Shown here in pieces: positions 204 through 27,342 of a DNA stretch of 61,718 nucleotides (positions within the stretch are counted from its first letter, which is position 1; every line of letters begins with the position of its first letter). A model generated the notes under the pieces. It had not been told where the DNA came from. It searched no databases and saw only the letters and a program-made list of their open reading frames with translations. The position numbers and the translations under genes were made by a program. The stretch covers positions 1 to 61,718 of the IMG/VR virus record IMGVR_UViG_3300021180_000012. One strand, written 5' to 3'. Source of the stretch: a virus.

Positions 204-278
204 TACTGTAGGTCGGATTTGAACCAGCGACCTCCCCAATGGTGTTAGGGGCGCTCTACCAGACTGAGCTACTACAGT
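204..278 (-). tRNA. tRNA-like gene with irregular anticodon arm
   Basis: On the minus strand a perfect 7-bp acceptor stem (ACTGTAG with CTACAGT), a perfect 4-bp D stem (GCTC/GAGC) and a T arm with TTCAAAT loop (one mismatch in the stem) form a tRNA cloverleaf of about 75 nt. The anticodon arm is abnormal: CCCC and GGGG enclose a 10-nt segment, so no standard 5+7+5 arm with U33 forms and the anticodon cannot be assigned. CCA is not encoded. It sits between the stem-loop at 283-324 and the terS ribosome-binding site, so it could be a degenerate tRNA, a processing signal or a tRNA mimic. Confidence 0.6.
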
Positions 279-17446: not shown

Positions 17447-18007
17447 CTACTCAAAAAGCAATATGTTGAACACGGATTGGAGATAGTAGTACACAGGCAC
17501 TTCAAGCCACTTCTTACCGTTCCCTGCTATGTTCAACACCTCGATACCATTCGAGACTATCCAGTAGGCGACTTCGTAGGGATCGATCTGCTTCTCCCAA
17601 TTGCCGCCCCCTGCATACCACTCGTTCTCCATGAAGATATCGAGATGAGGTTTTTTGTAGTGTCTGATAGCTGCCAGTGTGCAGTATTCGCCAGGAGTGT
17701 TGAAGTCGACACATAGACGGATCGTAGCGTCTGCGGCTTGAACATTCCTGTGTGTGCGGGTACGGTAGTCTGGGCAATCGTCCCGCATCTGGTACATCCA
17801 CGCGTATCCTGGTTTCTTCCCTCGTTGGGTAAGAAAGCCTGTGGGCATATGACCGCCGGTCTTGAAACCCATTTCCTTAGCGATTGCAACACCGGCAATA
17901 TCTGCCCCTACTTGCCCTCCCGAGATAACCTTACGCAACGTCGTAGGGTTTGGCACAGGGGGCGTCAGGATACGTCTTTGTTGGTATCCTTTGACTATTA
18001 CTCCCAT
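17447..18007 (-). CDS. SLOG-superfamily nucleotide-binding protein (putative molybdenum-carrier type), 186 residues
   Basis: KVISGGQVGADIAGVAIAKEMGF at about residues 26-48, followed by GGHMPTGF, matches the YpsA/'putative molybdenum carrier' branch of the SLOG Rossmann-like fold, known for nucleotide-ligand binding. The second half holds DATIRLCVDFNTPGEYCTLAAIR, the expected T-x-G-...-T element. In phages such genes often sit among nucleotide and DNA metabolism genes, as here beside the primase. The ligand is unknown; binding of an NAD- or ADP-ribose-like nucleotide is plausible. Confidence 0.75.
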   Translation of the reverse strand: MGVIVKGYQQRRILTPPVPNPTTLRKVISGGQVGADIAGVAIAKEMGFKTGGHMPTGFLTQRGKKPGYAWMYQMRDDCPDYRTRTHRNVQAADATIRLCVDFNTPGEYCTLAAIRHYKKPHLDIFMENEWYAGGGNWEKQIDPYEVAYWIVSNGIEVLNIAGNGKKWLEVPVYYYLQSVFNILLFE

Positions 18008-18262: not shown

Positions 18263-20809
18263 CTATGCAGCTAACGCGTATTTACCGGGTTTCCATTTTT
18301 CTTCTTCTACACCCCATCGGTGCTTAGTCACTGTGCACTCGACGGGCATAGGAACACCAACCCGACCCTCCGTATCCTCCATACGGGCGATGATCGATTG
18401 GATGATATTGTCTGTTAGGTGCTTCTCTCTAATCTCGATCTTGAGTTCGTCATGGATCGTGATAATGAGATGGGCATCACAGTTCTTTAGCCGGGACAGG
18501 AAGGCATCAACCTTTACCAGCGCATTCTTCATCATGTCAGCGGCTGACCCCTGCACCATGTAGCTAACGGCTCGATATCGGAACTGTGGATCTACGCAGA
18601 GCTTGCGACCATACAGGTTTATGATGTACCGATCGCGGCCACCCTTCTTGCCTAGCCTGTCCATGAACTCCTTCATCTCAGGCATTGAGGCATTGTACTC
18701 TTCGTCAAACTCGCGTGTTTCGTCGAGCGTACAGTACAACAGATGGGTATAGCTCTCGGGACCACCCCCGAAGATCTTAGCGTATGTGATGTGCTTGCAA
18801 CGTTGTCGGCTACTCTCTTTACCCAGAGAAGCCTCAGCCGCTACTATGCTGTAGCCGTGCTTTGCAATCCAGTCCTGCGCAATATCGTAGACTGTGCTGT
18901 CGCTAGGCGAATGGCGAAGCGCCTTGACCTTGCTCCAACCTATCTCGTTCCAGTAGTCCTTGACGGCATCGTTCGCCGGGTCCCTGAACAGGTCTAGCGC
19001 CTGTACAACAGCCTTAGCGGTGTTCTTGTTGAGCTTGCCGCCCCATGCCTTGTCTGCCATAGCCTTGAACGGGTCAGCGCCCGTGCTGATGGCTTCCAGC
19101 ATGACCGGTACTTGCGCAAGGAATGCGAAGATCCTGACCTCTTGTTGCGAGTAGTCGAAACCCAACCACACGTAACCAGGTCGAGGTCCAAAGACCTTAG
19201 TGGAGCTATAAGTGGCTGATAGGCTTTTCTTGCCGCCAGCCGAGACTTGTTGAAGGTTGGGGTCGTTGCAAGAGAACCGGCCTGTCTTAGTTCCGCATTG
19301 GTTGAGGCCCGGATGGATGACCCAACAGTCCCTGACTATTAGGTCAGGCTTCATCAAACCTTCGAACTTATCGAAGAACAGCCCCTTCGTATGCTTTGCG
19401 GCCCTATACCCGGCAAGTTCCTGTACGAACGGCTCGTACATCAGGTCTCGCAGGGTATCTTTGTCGGCGGTCAGTTTCTCGCCTTTGCCAACACCCTTGC
19501 GCTTGAACTGATGCGGAATGCCGAGACCACCCTCACCCTTTGGTAAGTACAGCACACGCATTAGCTGAGGAGATGACGACGGATTGAACGGCGGCGGTTT
19601 CCATTCGATCTTTCGTGGGCGCTTAGTCTCCGGTGGTGCCATCTTCTCTGGGGGTAGATGTAACAAACCATGTTCTTCGATAATCGACTGCATGTTGGCG
19701 AGATGGCTGTGCGGTCCCTCGTGATCCTTTGGTTTGGCACAGCCCATGACTTCGCATAGCTCGGGGTTGTCATGGAAGTACCCCATAGCCTCTAAGCAGT
19801 TCTGCGTCTCGATGCGGTTCTCGTCGGGGAAGGCACGCATACCGCGTTCTTCCATCTTGTTGACGATAGGCCATATGCTGCGCATCTCGAAGTCGTACTT
19901 CTCACGAAGGTAGTCATCGTCTGACATCACATCATGGTAGAACAGGTGCAGTCCCATTGTACGGAACGTATCAAACCGGCAGTACCGCTTGCAGCCTTCG
20001 AGCCACAGTGTGTTAGGCTCCTGCTCTTGCTCAAGGTCTAGCTTTGCGAAGTATGCAGGTAGCCAGTAGTCCGTTTTGGGTTCCTCGGATGAGAGCATCA
20101 GAGGCATGTTGTTCTTGATCGCTCGAACGTTGTAGCTCTTTAGTCGCCGTCTCGCAGACACTACGGCCTCTTGCAACTGCTTCTCATCAATGTCATCAAT
20201 ATCGAGGATGCGCTTGCTCAGAGGCTTTAAGCCGTAGTCGAGTTCCAACGTGTTGCAGACGCGAGCCTGGAAAAGCGTATCATGAATGCGACCGCCAGCA
20301 AGCTTGACCAGGAACTCCACGAAGATGCCAACCTTTGCCAGCATCCGGCAGTCGAACTTGGAGTTGTGGAAGATTGCTTGTATGCCTGGGGTAGAAAGAA
20401 CTGAGATGATATACTCAACGTCTGCGGGGTTAGGTGTTACCTCTCGGGTGAACGGATTGACTTCCCATGCACAGTACCAGGTGTGACCCTCTTCGTCGCA
20501 CATAGAGACTGCGAATGGTTTATCGACACACATAACCCCGTCAACGTCGTGTGCGCCCCACACATCAACGCCAGTGGTCTCGGTGTCGATCGCTACTATC
20601 TTGCCGGGTTTGAATTGATCTCGCGGTAGCTGAAACCCCGGCGGTTCTGTCTCAGGTCGCGGTGTAGCTATGGCTTCGTCTAAAGAGCGCAAAAGCTCCT
20701 CTTCCCAGTCCGGTTCCTCTTCCAGACGTTTAAGGCGCTCATCTCTTGTAATCATCCTGCGCACGCTAGCAGGGTTTACCATCCTACGTACGCGAGTTTT
20801 TATCTTCAT
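18263..20809 (-). CDS. polA: DNA polymerase I-like (family A) with proofreading domain, 848 residues
   Basis: Residues about 70-260 form a DnaQ-like 3'-5' exonuclease: IDTETTG at 74-80, then FHNSKFDCRM, and YCRFDTFRT as motif III. The polymerase domain shows CGTKTGRFSCNDPN, motif A DYSQQE near 552, the O-helix R-x3-K-x3-Y near 668-676 and motif C HDE near 786. The O-helix position equal to E. coli Phe762 is Tyr, as in T7 polymerase. There is no 5'-3' exonuclease domain. The N-terminus has the basic MKIKTR start also found on other replication-module proteins. It is the main replicative polymerase of the phage. Confidence 0.93.
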   Translation of the reverse strand: MKIKTRVRRMVNPASVRRMITRDERLKRLEEEPDWEEELLRSLDEAIATPRPETEPPGFQLPRDQFKPGKIVAIDTETTGVDVWGAHDVDGVMCVDKPFAVSMCDEEGHTWYCAWEVNPFTREVTPNPADVEYIISVLSTPGIQAIFHNSKFDCRMLAKVGIFVEFLVKLAGGRIHDTLFQARVCNTLELDYGLKPLSKRILDIDDIDEKQLQEAVVSARRRLKSYNVRAIKNNMPLMLSSEEPKTDYWLPAYFAKLDLEQEQEPNTLWLEGCKRYCRFDTFRTMGLHLFYHDVMSDDDYLREKYDFEMRSIWPIVNKMEERGMRAFPDENRIETQNCLEAMGYFHDNPELCEVMGCAKPKDHEGPHSHLANMQSIIEEHGLLHLPPEKMAPPETKRPRKIEWKPPPFNPSSSPQLMRVLYLPKGEGGLGIPHQFKRKGVGKGEKLTADKDTLRDLMYEPFVQELAGYRAAKHTKGLFFDKFEGLMKPDLIVRDCWVIHPGLNQCGTKTGRFSCNDPNLQQVSAGGKKSLSATYSSTKVFGPRPGYVWLGFDYSQQEVRIFAFLAQVPVMLEAISTGADPFKAMADKAWGGKLNKNTAKAVVQALDLFRDPANDAVKDYWNEIGWSKVKALRHSPSDSTVYDIAQDWIAKHGYSIVAAEASLGKESSRQRCKHITYAKIFGGGPESYTHLLYCTLDETREFDEEYNASMPEMKEFMDRLGKKGGRDRYIINLYGRKLCVDPQFRYRAVSYMVQGSAADMMKNALVKVDAFLSRLKNCDAHLIITIHDELKIEIREKHLTDNIIQSIIARMEDTEGRVGVPMPVECTVTKHRWGVEEEKWKPGKYALAA

Positions 20810-20872: not shown

Positions 20873-21466
20873 TTACTCGGCTACCGGTTCAGCCGCTGCA
20901 ACTTCCCATACCAGCGGATCGAGACTTTCCAGCATTTTGATAATGGCGAGCGCTGCGTCTCGTTGGTCCGGTGTGCAGCCTTTATTCTCCCAGTCTTTGT
21001 ACGTACGATCGTAGAACTCCTGGTAGGTTCCAATGGCGCAACCACACCTCACTTTGCCAGGGCTGTAGTGGTTGATAGGCCACTTAACAAAGTATACGAC
21101 CATAGGGGCAAGCTTATTACCGATCGTGGCCTCTTCACCGATCGTGGCCTCTTCACCGATCGTGGCCCATGCACCGATCGTGGCCCTGTCACCGATCTTG
21201 GCCCATGCACCGATCGTGGCCTCTTCACCGATCTTGGCCCATGCACCGATCGTGGCCCTGTCACCGATCTTGGCCCATGCACCGATCTTGGCCCATGCAC
21301 CGATCTTGGCCCATGCACCGATCTTGGCCTCTTCACCGATCTTGGCCCATGCACCGATCTTGGCAGAGCTTGCCACAAGGCAAAACCATCCGTCAGTCGC
21401 TGTGTACTTACCATCTACGAGATCGTAGTTCTTGATGTCTTTCCACAACCTATATCTCTCAGCCAT
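20873..21466 (-). CDS. Hexapeptide-repeat (left-handed beta-helix) protein, 197 residues
   Basis: After a short N-terminal region (RYRLWKDIKNYDLVDGKYTATDGWF), residues about 33-116 are 14 tandem hexads of the form I-G-x-x-A-(K/T), the consensus of left-handed beta-helix proteins. The hexads come in three versions at positions 3-4: AW, EE and DR. A C-terminal globular part (about 120-197) includes YFVKWPINHYSPGKVRCGCAIG and an Asp/Ala-rich helix. Family members are often acyltransferases, but the lack of an evident catalytic His in the repeats argues for a structural or antifreeze-like/DNA-mimic-like rod. It lies between polymerase and 21503-23071. Confidence 0.8.
   Translation of the reverse strand: MAERYRLWKDIKNYDLVDGKYTATDGWFCLVASSAKIGAWAKIGEEAKIGAWAKIGAWAKIGAWAKIGDRATIGAWAKIGEEATIGAWAKIGDRATIGAWATIGEEATIGEEATIGNKLAPMVVYFVKWPINHYSPGKVRCGCAIGTYQEFYDRTYKDWENKGCTPDQRDAALAIIKMLESLDPLVWEVAAAEPVAE
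21119..21370. repeat. 18-bp tandem minisatellite, 14 units
   Basis: Fourteen units of ACCGATC(G/T)TGGCC plus a variable CATG, TCTT or CTGT and a final C run without interruption inside the hexapeptide-repeat gene. Each unit codes one hexad on the minus strand, so gains or losses of units keep the frame. Near-identity of units at DNA level suggests recent expansion or ongoing gene conversion. Confidence 0.95.
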
Positions 21467-21502
21467 TGATATCTCCTTATTCCAAAAAGTCTTCGAGTAC
21501 GT

Positions 21503-23676: not shown

Positions 23677-25077
23677 TTAGGGTTTGCGAAGCTGGTCGAA
23701 CGGTACCTCGCGGGACACGCGGCCCACCATGACCGTCGCGATCGAGGTGTCGGCGTTCAGGGACTGCACGGTACCGCGAAGATCCTCGGACGGTTTCTTC
23801 GGGTTCGCGAAGATCACTTCCTCACCGACGTTCACCTCGACATCGACAAGGACCTCGGAGAAGGCTACAGTGTAGACCTTCTTACCTACCTTGACTTCGA
23901 GGCTTTCACCCTCGTTGTCGATGCTCTCGCAGATGCCGGTGTATTCCTTGCCGTTCTGCTCGAAGGTCACTTCGTCGCCAATGTTGATGGTGATGCCGCC
24001 GCTCTCAGCGGCTGCGTCCTCGCCGGTCTTGGTGGCGTCGTCGAAGGCAACGGTGTAGCTCTTGCCGCCACAATCGACGCTGAGTTCCTGCTCGGCGGCG
24101 TCGACCTCGGTAACGGTGCCGGTGCGCTCCTTGCTGCCGACCTTCCAGGTGATTTCGTCACCCACGCTAAAAGGTGCGTCGTCCGGTGCTTCCTCACCTT
24201 CCTTCTTGAGATCGGAGAGGCTGACAGCGTACAGCTTCTTGCCGACCTTGACCTGGGCCTCGTCGCCGTCGATGCTGTCGATGGTACCGGCATACGTCTT
24301 GCCGCCCTGTTCGAACTCGACATCATCGCCTTCGGAGAAGTCGCTGCCCCCGGCGTCGTCCGGGTCCTCGTTCTTCGCAACCGCCTCGTAGGGAACCGTG
24401 TAGGTTTTCTTGCCTACAGTGACTGAGACCTCGCTCTCGGTCTCGTCCACGCTGTCGACGATGCCGACCATCTCCTTCGAACCCACAGTGATTGTGACCT
24501 CGTCGCCCTCGGCGCATGGAGCCGGTGGAGTTTCGGTCTTGGGTTTCGCCGCCGCGCCAGCTTTCGGTTTGGATGCCGTGGTACTCTTGGCGCTGCCGCC
24601 CTTCGCGAGTTCGGCGGGGAGCTTGTAGCCCTCCTCGCGCTCCTGCAAGTAGACGTTCTGGAAGCCGGTCTGCGTGTTGGTCTTGAGCTTGATGCGCCAA
24701 ACCTGCTTCTGCTTCACGGCGTCCTCAAACAGCTTCTCAAGCTGTGTGGGATCGAGTTCGGAGGCGTCATTCCCTGTGAGCGCTTCGAGGCGCTTGATGG
24801 TCTTGCTGCTGATGTCGCCCTCGTAGAACAGACCCTGCCACTCGTACTTGGTCTCGTTCACGCGGTCGCCTTCGAGGATGTACCAGCCGTGGAGCGAACC
24901 CCACGCCGGGGGGTTGTCCTTCGTACCCTGCGACATCTTGACTTCGACGCCGTTGTACAAGGCGACGTATTCGCCGTCATCCCAATTGCTTTCGCCGGAG
25001 GAGTGGGCCGTCTCGACGGACGAACCCCAGTTTTTCTTCGCGTTCTTCAACAATGCGTTGAGATCGTTAGCTGCCAT
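23677..25077 (-). CDS. DUF669 SSB-like protein with about five tandem SH3-like modules, 466 residues
   Basis: Residues 1-150 match the DUF669 pattern of phage recombination/SSB-associated proteins: DLNALLKNAKKNW, DDGEYVALYNGVEVKMSQG, LFYEGDISSKTIKRLEAL and QVWRIKLKTNTQTGFQNVYL. A Lys/Ala/Pro linker follows. Residues about 190-466 are roughly five repeats of a 55-60-residue module, G-D-E-V-T...V-G-K-K-x-Y-x-V, resembling KOW/Tudor/SH3-like barrels. This large C-terminal array is unusual for the family. It lies upstream of polymerase and downstream of the Sak4-like ATPase, in line with a DNA-coating role. Confidence 0.8.
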   Translation of the reverse strand: MAANDLNALLKNAKKNWGSSVETAHSSGESNWDDGEYVALYNGVEVKMSQGTKDNPPAWGSLHGWYILEGDRVNETKYEWQGLFYEGDISSKTIKRLEALTGNDASELDPTQLEKLFEDAVKQKQVWRIKLKTNTQTGFQNVYLQEREEGYKLPAELAKGGSAKSTTASKPKAGAAAKPKTETPPAPCAEGDEVTITVGSKEMVGIVDSVDETESEVSVTVGKKTYTVPYEAVAKNEDPDDAGGSDFSEGDDVEFEQGGKTYAGTIDSIDGDEAQVKVGKKLYAVSLSDLKKEGEEAPDDAPFSVGDEITWKVGSKERTGTVTEVDAAEQELSVDCGGKSYTVAFDDATKTGEDAAAESGGITINIGDEVTFEQNGKEYTGICESIDNEGESLEVKVGKKVYTVAFSEVLVDVEVNVGEEVIFANPKKPSEDLRGTVQSLNADTSIATVMVGRVSREVPFDQLRKP

Positions 25078-25209: not shown

Positions 25210-25692
25210 TTACGAACGATCCAGCGTAGCCGCCGCGTTGGGTTGATCGGTGTTCGCTGTGTCGTCGTGAACATGGAGGATGACGGAGTATCGGTGAGCC
25301 GTCAGTGGATCGGGTTGAAGTTGACCAGAGGCCGTGTAACTGTGACCGCCGACCGCGTAGTTGCCGGTCATGACGCCAGCGTTTGTGATGCCGCCGACGA
25401 GATCGTGACCGATGCCGGATTGCCCGTTGAAGTCGATGGTGCCAGCGGTCATTGCGCCGGATGCGTTGATGGAGAAGTGGACATCGCCGCCGTGTGCGGT
25501 CGTATCGGCTGAGAACGTTCCGTTGTAGTTGCCCTGGTAGCTCGATGTTGTACCACCGCCGCCACCGCCCGGTGAGGAGGACCCGCCCCCGCCACCACCG
25601 CAACCCGTAACCGAGGCGAGAACCGCGAACACTGCTGCTGCCAGCATTCCCTTACCGTAGGGGCTGCCACTGATTGATGTGAATACCTTCAT
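25210..25692 (-). CDS. Predicted lipoprotein, 160 residues
   Basis: I chose the ATG at 25692 (MKVFTSISG) with GAAGGG seven bases upstream. A signal sequence with hydrophobic core (LAAAVFAVLASV) ends in a VTGC lipobox near residue 31. Lipid-modified Cys would be followed by a long Gly/Ser/Pro-rich tether and a beta-rich domain with Gly-Thr-Asp repeats. The lack of Asp at +2 predicts outer-membrane sorting in a Gram-negative host. A lipoprotein inside the replication operon suggests superinfection exclusion or receptor masking, as known for some phage lipoproteins; here that is inference. Confidence 0.8.
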   Translation of the reverse strand: MKVFTSISGSPYGKGMLAAAVFAVLASVTGCGGGGGGSSSPGGGGGGTTSSYQGNYNGTFSADTTAHGGDVHFSINASGAMTAGTIDFNGQSGIGHDLVGGITNAGVMTGNYAVGGHSYTASGQLQPDPLTAHRYSVILHVHDDTANTDQPNAAATLDRS

Positions 25693-25733
25693 TGCTTTGC
25701 CCTTCTTTCGAATGTGATATAGAGCAAACGCTG

Positions 25734-26216
25734 TTAGCGCTTGCGAAGAGTGTTGATGTAGCGGCGTCGTGGCCCGACTTCGGAGCCTTTGAGAACTCCC
25801 GTCCACTGCCCTGACTTGGCCGGTCGCGAGCGCTGCTGCGAGTAGAGTTGATCGGAGGTCATGAATGGCCGGTATCGGCCTTTGATTGTCTTGTTGTCCA
25901 TGGTTTCCCTTGCGTAGTATTCGAGACGTATTGTTCCGGCTAACACAGCGTCTGCAATCTGCCGTCGCTCGTTCTTAGTGGTTAGGCGCATCTGCCACTG
26001 CGTTTTGGATAGCTCTCCGTCTTGGAGTGCACAGTTCTGCGAGACCTCATCAGGGCGCTTGTATCGGGTTAGATTAAAGCCGTGACCGCCTTGTGACCAA
26101 TCGTTTGACGCCTGAGCAACTATGCCAAACTTAACCGCTCCACCGTTTACTGTATAGGCTACCTGCCTACCCGCAAACTCTGACACGTCACTCCATTTAG
26201 AGAGAACTTTCCACAT
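25734..26216 (-). CDS. Unknown basic protein, 160 residues
   Basis: The product begins MWKVLSKWSDVSEFAGRQVAYTVNGGAVKFGIVAQ and is beta-rich at first, with a central helical KNERRQIADAVLAGTIRLEYYARE and a very basic C-terminus (QQRSRPAKSG, GPRRRYINTLRKR). The charge suggests nucleic-acid binding. It lies directly downstream of the Sak4-like ATPase gene. No family is recognised. Confidence 0.65.
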   Translation of the reverse strand: MWKVLSKWSDVSEFAGRQVAYTVNGGAVKFGIVAQASNDWSQGGHGFNLTRYKRPDEVSQNCALQDGELSKTQWQMRLTTKNERRQIADAVLAGTIRLEYYARETMDNKTIKGRYRPFMTSDQLYSQQRSRPAKSGQWTGVLKGSEVGPRRRYINTLRKR

Positions 26217-26229
26217 TGACCTTTGCTCC

Positions 26230-27165
26230 TTAGCGACGGCCCTTGACGGTGAACTTCGCCTTCACTTCGGAAAGCTCAGCCTTGCGTCGTAGCTCGCCGT
26301 CGTCCTTTTGTTTGTTTTCGTAGGCGTAGACGATGTTAGCGTATGCTTCTTCCGCACTATCGCCCATAGGGATTGATATGACTGGATCGCCGCCGGGTGT
26401 GTTGAAGTTGTTCTTCATTCGGCACTTCGCGTCAACGTTTTCGTCACCGCGAATTACCAGCTTACGTTCACCGCCGACATAACAGTAGCACGCGGTAATA
26501 TCGCAGAAGCCGTTCAGGAAGCGTCGCCCCTTCTCCTCGATGGATGCGATAAGCTTCATGTTCTTAACCCCTGTAGCCTTCTGCATTTCCTTTTCCAGAG
26601 TGTGGGAGATAAACACCACACCCCGGCCTGTTGCAGTCAGCCGCATTATCTGGTCCTTAAACTCTGCGAGCCGCCGATTGTTGCCCTTGTTGAAACCGAG
26701 AGACCCGCTGTTGATATCGTCAGGATCATCGTCGGCTTGCTCGATCACGAACTTACCGGCGAGATCCCATGCGAAGTCTGCGGTGTCAAAGGTGATGGTC
26801 TCGTACAGATCAGAGGCTACGATCTGGTCAATGACCTTCACGAACTGTTTCTTCCAACTCGTGAACTGCCCTTCCCGTGGAAGCCTAACAATCTCTAAGA
26901 AGTCACCACCTGGTTCGAAGAATAGCGAAAGGTTATCGGGGAACATTGAAGCAAGCTCCGTTTTCCCTATGCCTGGTTCGCCGTGGATGAAAAGCTTCGC
27001 AGATCGGAGATTTCCGCGTGGCTTCTCAGCCTTTGTAGGAAGAGATAGGTCGATCTCATTTGGTCTGACTATCGATCGTTTCGCCACCGTAGGGGCGCTA
27101 ACGACTGACCGCGTAACTGGTTTCGCGGCTGACCTACCTCCGATCCTCGCTGTTATTGTTGCCAT
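26230..27165 (-). CDS. Sak4-like RecA-fold ATPase (single-strand annealing/recombination), 311 residues
   Basis: The start at 27165 follows GGAAGGTGG-ctactat. After a basic N-terminus, KLFIHGEPGIGKTEL carries a Walker A (about 62-69), and ETITFDTADFAWDL and GRGVVFISHTLEKE give the Walker B strand and sensor. This is the AAA_24/Sak4 pattern of phage recombinases that work with SSB-like partners; the DUF669 gene lies three genes downstream. A perfect promoter is located 180 bases upstream, so expression of the recombination-replication set may be boosted here. Confidence 0.85.
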   Translation of the reverse strand: MATITARIGGRSAAKPVTRSVVSAPTVAKRSIVRPNEIDLSLPTKAEKPRGNLRSAKLFIHGEPGIGKTELASMFPDNLSLFFEPGGDFLEIVRLPREGQFTSWKKQFVKVIDQIVASDLYETITFDTADFAWDLAGKFVIEQADDDPDDINSGSLGFNKGNNRRLAEFKDQIMRLTATGRGVVFISHTLEKEMQKATGVKNMKLIASIEEKGRRFLNGFCDITACYCYVGGERKLVIRGDENVDAKCRMKNNFNTPGGDPVISIPMGDSAEEAYANIVYAYENKQKDDGELRRKAELSEVKAKFTVKGRR

Positions 27166-27342
27166 ATAGTAGCCACCTTCCGGTTTATCGTAGTGTCTGA
27201 GAGCCTTCGTTTCCTCGTCCGATGTTTCCAGCAATGGGAGAGGCTAACGTATTCAGAAAGCTCGATCTAACCGTACGGATGGCTGTTGTGAATGTTCAGC
27301 GGGATCGGCGGCTGCTTTGGCCGTGCTCGCCCGACAAGATAG

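Follow-up and report, generated by a model that had tools for sequence, protein, structure and literature searches.

The window analyzed here, a virus record of 61,718 bases carrying tape-measure, terminase and major head genes (IMGVR_UViG_3300021180_000012), contains an open reading frame of 197 amino acids whose middle part is an in-frame 18-bp minisatellite, and the question is what role a protein with such a repetitive core may play in a phage. A sequence-only reading of the locus had seen in it a rod with selectable faces encoded next to DNA polymerase, possibly a DNA mimic, a scaffold or an inhibitor of host defence, whose unit number would vary between phages. In this work we propose that the product is a probably non-catalytic display or spacer rod placed on a conserved docking domain and diversified by repeat recombination. 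We give this reading a probability of roughly 55%, a confidence that belongs mostly to the architecture and evolution of the protein and less to its role.

The organization of the locus is summarized in Table 1. The gene forms part of a co-directional run and lies directly upstream of the gene for family-A DNA polymerase, the neighbour already recognized in the earlier reading. A frame artefact was considered and rejected: the 18-bp unit is devoid of stop codons and the other frames are open for this reason, but the minus-strand frame is fixed by the ribosome-binding site, by the constraint on the I, G and A codons and by the homologues. The first 34 residues resemble, by eye, the N-termini of two of these homologues (L003 and L019).

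Table 1 Features of the minisatellite gene and its surroundings, in window coordinates
Feature	Position	Strand	Evidence
Open reading frame, 197 aa: N-terminal segment, hexapeptide array and C-terminal domain	20873-21466	-	ORF list, ribosome-binding site, Pfam Hexapep E 9.2e-24
Ribosome-binding site TAAGGAGA, strong, 5 nt upstream of ATG	21472-21479	-	read directly in the sequence
N-terminal segment, residues 1-34 (RLWKDIKNYDLVDGKY..DGW)	21365-21466	-	compared by eye with homologues
Array of 14 hexads, 13 regular (21131-21364) plus ATIGNK; residues 35-118	21113-21364	-	TRF, in-frame reading
Sole difference from the sister contig: unit 8, AAG to ACG, K to T	21234	-	contig comparison
C-terminal domain, residues ~123-190, probable divergent family member	20897-21100	-	hhalign; predicted beta4-alpha3
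Family-A DNA polymerase, 63 nt downstream of the open reading frame	18263-20809	-	Pfam DNA_pol_A E 7.7e-52, phrog_17
Sak4-like ssDNA annealing protein	26230-27234	-	phrog_124 E 2.2e-19

Tandem Repeats Finder (TRF) placed the array at 21119-21364, as 13.7 copies of an 18-base period (score 334) or 6.8 copies of a 36-base one (score 383); no other tandem array in the window scored above 84, and none of 200 shuffles of the open reading frame exceeded 39. Read in frame on the minus strand, the array consists of 13 perfect A-[KT]-I-G-X-X units and a degenerate fourteenth (ATIGNK) that ends at 21113; the fourteen-unit minisatellite described earlier is thus confirmed, with its range about 6 bases off and its last unit imperfect. 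The three variants listed for the X-X pair were found as well (AW seven times, EE four times and DR twice among the regular units), and a further variable position, K or T in the proportion 8/6, had been left unmentioned. The A, I and G codons are identical in 13/13 regular units and all the variation falls in three codons, which in a hexapeptide solenoid correspond to exposed positions; for the five unit types pN was 0.209 and pS 0.024. Nearly all related arrays have most of their variation at the corresponding positions, with pN/pS from about 0.6 to infinite and in several cases near 1. Recent homogenisation of the array is therefore well supported and diversifying selection is not, since the low pS in the window may result from recency alone. 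The recent expansion claimed before holds in this form, the core codons being free of silent changes.

The selectable faces fared worse. The rod is short, its 14 hexads making fewer than 5 coils, and in the window identical unit types are not enriched at lag 3, which corresponds to one hexapeptide coil (p 0.89). Among the other arrays an enrichment was detected only in L019 (p 0.019) and in L024, in which it extends over all lags 1-4.

That the array has a hexapeptide-solenoid sequence, as assumed from the beginning, is supported by the match to Pfam Hexapep (PF00132; 82.5 bits against a cut-off of 27, E 9.2e-24) and by the motif [LIV]-[GAED]-X2-[STAV]-X, which fits 13/14 hexads; a sequence search of PDB returned LpxA and LpxD solenoids with E down to 1.6e-10, matching the repeat only. 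A single-sequence AlphaFold2 model was poor (mean pLDDT 48) and had a 12-residue period. When a 12-row family alignment was supplied, the predicted array adopted a period of 6 residues with pLDDT of about 70-82, residues 123-190 were modelled as beta4-alpha3 (pLDDT mostly 73-86) and the N-terminal segment stayed mostly below 50 (residues 1-30). In the structural comparison this model matched first a chain from the respiratory supercomplex of Chlamydomonas, where the rmsd was poor (11.8), and next MfpA, onto which the array superposes with Z 8.0 and rmsd 2.1 over 82 residues, a Z near 8 being common for such models. Foldseek against PDB gave no match at E <0.001, the structural rows spanning mainly residues 16-132 and barely covering the C-terminal domain. 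The array of the alignment-based model thus has a six-residue period, and the nearest solved structures are mixed, right-handed pentapeptide solenoids such as MfpA being among them; the array sequence itself favours the left-handed hexapeptide type.

Hexapeptide solenoids invite an enzymatic interpretation, and the automatic annotation of the relatives follows it, which would make the product a degenerate or active acyltransferase of the LpxA-like kind, related to DapH, DapD or GlmU. The repeats are indeed similar in sequence to those of the left-handed beta-helix acyltransferases LpxA, LpxD and NeuD, the Leptospira homologues carry such names, and a phage-encoded hexapeptide acetyltransferase, NeuO, exists (PMC3046976). 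However, all NCBIfam transferase models remained far below their cut-offs (best 49.2 against 207 bits) and the best matches span the repeats only. Hexapeptide acyltransferases use a catalytic His located within the solenoid, and array residues 35-118 contain none, the only His of the protein (133) lying outside; the near-perfect repeats and variable length further distinguish the window protein from LpxA, LpxD and NeuD. Close relatives also differ in rod length, and pentapeptide repeats may replace the hexads in front of the same C-terminal domain. With no transferase model above cut-off and no His in the array we rejected the enzymatic interpretation as very improbable. A fixed unit number in all relatives together with a transferase active site had been named beforehand as the outcome that would speak against the earlier proposal; what was found is variable length in relatives and no transferase signature.

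The resemblance to MfpA bears on another possibility, that the protein serves as an inhibitor or decoy whose target is a defence system or a DNA enzyme of the host, as with MfpA and Qnr or, through DNA mimicry, Ocr. The phage origin, the position in a replication region and the variable exposed surface are consistent with such a function, the window protein shares the beta-solenoid character of MfpA and Qnr, and some relatives with the same C-terminal domain have pentapeptide solenoids, the fold of these two proteins. Yet the window has hexads instead of pentads, an additional C-terminal domain and no acidic excess in the array, and the superposition on MfpA has a Z value that is ordinary for models of this type. 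In DNA mimics the mimicking surface is strongly acidic. The array contains 10 basic and 10 acidic residues, and for this reason the suggestion of a DNA mimic is disfavoured; inhibition or decoy action as a whole appears doubtful, though a non-mimic inhibitor is conceivable.

The rod is followed by a conserved C-terminal domain, the family-defining part of the protein, which the sequence-only reading did not mention. A DNA-pattern scan for the unit returned two contigs. One is a near-identical sister; the other belongs to an otherwise unrelated phage and encodes a homologue (202 amino acids, about seventeen hexads) with an N-terminus similar to that of the window protein. Starting from the C-terminus of this homologue, relatives were recovered in a T4-like phage record, in two contigs of human-gut phages, in ten additional viral contigs and in a Spirochaetes MAG; the domain was also found on Leptospira and Chloroflexota plasmids, and among 198 genomes surveyed from the phylum of the MAG it was present in 2, one being the MAG itself. 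The family motif reads H.V ... I.IGC...T..EW ... YS..QI.EYK.YID. Aligned to the family with hhalign, the window C-terminus scored 22.5 (E 5e-4, probability 31-34%), a weak result in absolute terms but higher than any obtained with 300 shuffles (at most 17.9) or with 200 unrelated segments of the window (at most 20.0). The alignment is gap-free from GC to the last helix and covers most of the domain. The evidence that the C-terminal ~70 residues are a divergent copy of this phage and plasmid domain is therefore good but not overwhelming.

The closest described family is PHROG 5353 (also PHROG 7964 and 32789), in which, as in the window, hexapeptide repeats precede a C-terminal domain. Its profile matched the window protein over the repeats (E 1.1e-19, profile columns 69-164) and its C-terminal columns were matched by the relatives L007, L008 and L003/5, whereas the isolated window C-terminus, too divergent for HMMER, gave no direct match to phrog_5353. 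The three PHROG entries are labelled 'unknown function' and none of the relatives has a function assigned. Tblastn with the N- and C-terminal parts of the window protein against phages and plasmids gave nothing useful (in one search weak matches, E about 1 or worse), and the same holds for a C-terminal peptide scan, for megablast with 24 kb of window DNA against phages and for a scan of viral contigs for the polymerase; when terminase and capsid were scanned for, no phage other than the known sister came up. A PDB sequence search with the C-terminal profile yielded nothing significant (best E 0.073), and no paper on a family combining the rod with this domain was found in the open-access literature.

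What precedes the C-terminal domain differs between its carriers. Hexapeptide solenoids were found in the window, L003/5, L007, L008, L010-L012, L014-L017, L019, L022, L023 and L024, and solenoids of the pentapeptide type in L006, L020/L021, L025 and the second gene of L022. TRF detected a tandem DNA array in each of the 18 C-terminal homologues to which it was applied (weak in L015), with a period that tracks the solenoid: 18 bp or its multiples for hexapeptide and 15 bp or its multiples for pentapeptide rods. Nearly all these arrays, of 5 to about 28 units, are phage-specific minisatellites. Identity of units reaches 63-93% within arrays (56% in L015) against 43-56% between them, so each lineage has homogenised its own units by concerted evolution. 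L009, a phage hexapeptide protein lacking the C-terminal domain, has no array, and the pentapeptide-repeat protein L028 (743-1360), with a different C-terminus, has a 45-bp array; coding minisatellites are thus usual in the family but not exclusive to it. The L028 gene is found upstream of the L010 homologue, a few genes away, with genes for PAPS reductase and DNA methyltransferase nearby. In L022 a hexapeptide and a pentapeptide member stand side by side, and a plasmid of Leptospira mayottensis (L024, 1067-3234) carries four consecutive hexapeptide-repeat genes, of which only the last possesses the C-terminal domain. Since both the type and the number of steps change on the same end domain, the rod can be regarded as the fast-changing and probably non-enzymatic part of the protein.

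The number of units differs even between close relatives. Between shared anchors in flanking DNA of 90-93% identity, L007 has 5 units and L010 has 15; of the two Leptospira genes, L022 has 12 and L023 has 19. Neither difference (10 and 7) is a multiple of 3, so that the two ends of the rod rotate relative to each other; we infer that a function requiring a fixed angle between them is unlikely, and a rod free of this requirement argues against a fixed active-site geometry. The expected variation in copy number is therefore borne out among relatives (5 vs 15, 12 vs 19), and within the phage's own population it comes down to one nucleotide in one contig. The sister contig, otherwise identical over 38,805 bases, ends inside the array 25 nt from this mismatch; a point change, the loss of four units or a jump in the assembly would each account for it. 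Copy-number variation inside the population is thus tentatively suggested by one variant in 38.8 kb, which lies in the array.

Both the variant and the array length may in fact be artefacts of short-read assembly, an explanation that concerns the variation only and is compatible with any view of the function. The proximity of the contig end to the sole mismatch fits it, the last 78 nt of the sister contig recur elsewhere in the array of the window, and a second contig has been closed via a 76-nt overlap inside its own array. Against it, the 76-nt overlap hints at an assembler working with 77-mers, in which case a 77-mer joining the K of unit 5 to the T of unit 8 must have been read, and length differences occur also in Leptospira plasmids deposited as complete sequences. 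We consider an artefact possible, if somewhat unlikely. The L012/L013 pair likewise differs only inside the array, near a contig end. The ends of the L003/L005 contig (IMGVR_UViG_3300025009_000108) overlap by 76 nt within the minisatellite, so that assembly may account for its apparent terminal repeat.

Variation of this kind could also be of little consequence, produced by slippage in a rod that acts only as a stabilising cap or an oligomerisation handle for the C-terminal domain. The wide range of unit numbers following no multiple-of-3 rule, the lack of face periodicity in the window and the pN/pS near 1 in several arrays agree with neutral dynamics, but no array has lost the frame or the hydrophobic or small core, distant phages have kept arrays, as have both solenoid types, and some replicons hold several copies side by side. 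On balance purely neutral turnover seems unlikely.

In the reading preferred here, a display or spacer rod on a docking domain, the small phage protein would be a beta-solenoid fused to a conserved C-terminal alpha/beta domain. Its 18-bp units would be gained, lost and exchanged in frame by slippage or single-strand annealing during phage replication, which would give a new rod length and a new exposed pattern of X-X and K/T residues with the I/G/A core and the frame kept. The rod would then offer a surface that evolves rapidly and serves for display or spacing, the conserved contact being made by the C-terminal domain. The Sak4-like annealing protein of the window is a possible driver of such recombination.

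The neighbours of the rod gene in the window comprise the polymerase, a primase-like protein, the Sak4-like protein, an exonuclease and a helicase, and a Sak4-like protein (L035), an exonuclease (L032) and a DnaB helicase (L037, on the contig of L003) recur in the vicinity of homologues. This setting among replication genes suggests that the protein probably acts early in infection, on the host or on phage DNA metabolism. Such timing is tentative, because a DNA methyltransferase, a PAPS reductase, a glucosyltransferase and the small terminase subunit also occur beside homologues. A bolder and clearly speculative extension would be a diversity-generating module operating without reverse transcriptase, in which a conserved docking domain carries interchangeable hexapeptide or pentapeptide beta-solenoids with exposed residues reshuffled by minisatellite recombination, the resulting population of rods tracking changing host targets.

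The nearest case found in the open-access literature is NeuO of prophage CUS-3, a phage-encoded hexapeptide-solenoid enzyme whose gene contains a variable-number tandem repeat (PMC3046976). The likeness lies in the combination of a phage hexapeptide solenoid with a tandem repeat within the gene. The repeat of neuO, however, has a 7-bp unit, lies immediately behind the start codon and thus not in the solenoid, and causes frame switching (PMC3046976), whereas the 18-bp unit of the window is the solenoid itself and preserves the frame, and NeuO is an enzyme. An in-frame intragenic tandem repeat that varies between strains has been described in E. coli tolA (PMC3477136); it resembles the window in being an in-frame coding repeat and differs in belonging to a bacterial gene and not to a phage hexapeptide solenoid. 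Hexapeptide repeats, PHROG families of unknown function and coding tandem repeats are all known kinds. Relative to PHROG 5353, what is added here is the minisatellite and the exchange of solenoid type, and for a phage domain riding on either of two solenoid types, each built by a lineage-specific minisatellite, no description was found in the open-access literature. The domain offers a handle on a widespread group of uncharacterised proteins of phages and plasmids, which now bear transferase or plain pentapeptide annotations. Should the arrays truly turn over in populations, they would constitute a simple natural system for diversification of a solenoid surface with fold and frame kept, and typing the repeats of a single gene could reveal whether phages vary a binding surface through coding minisatellites.

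Several other products of the window deserve mention. Just downstream of the polymerase gene lies that of a circularly permuted YpsA/SLOG-family protein (17447-18007, minus strand; Pfam cpYpsA E 1e-21). A 466-amino-acid protein (23677-25077, minus strand) carries several SH3/KOW-like repeats (GDEV....GK.Y.G...S...) behind an N-terminal domain and is the second internally repeated protein in the gene run; its PHROG matches are weak. A small lipoprotein-like product (25210-25806, minus strand) shows a signal-peptide-like stretch, a Cys and then a glycine-rich run, and a single tRNA-Gly (anticodon acc; 204-278, minus strand) is located near the edge of the record.
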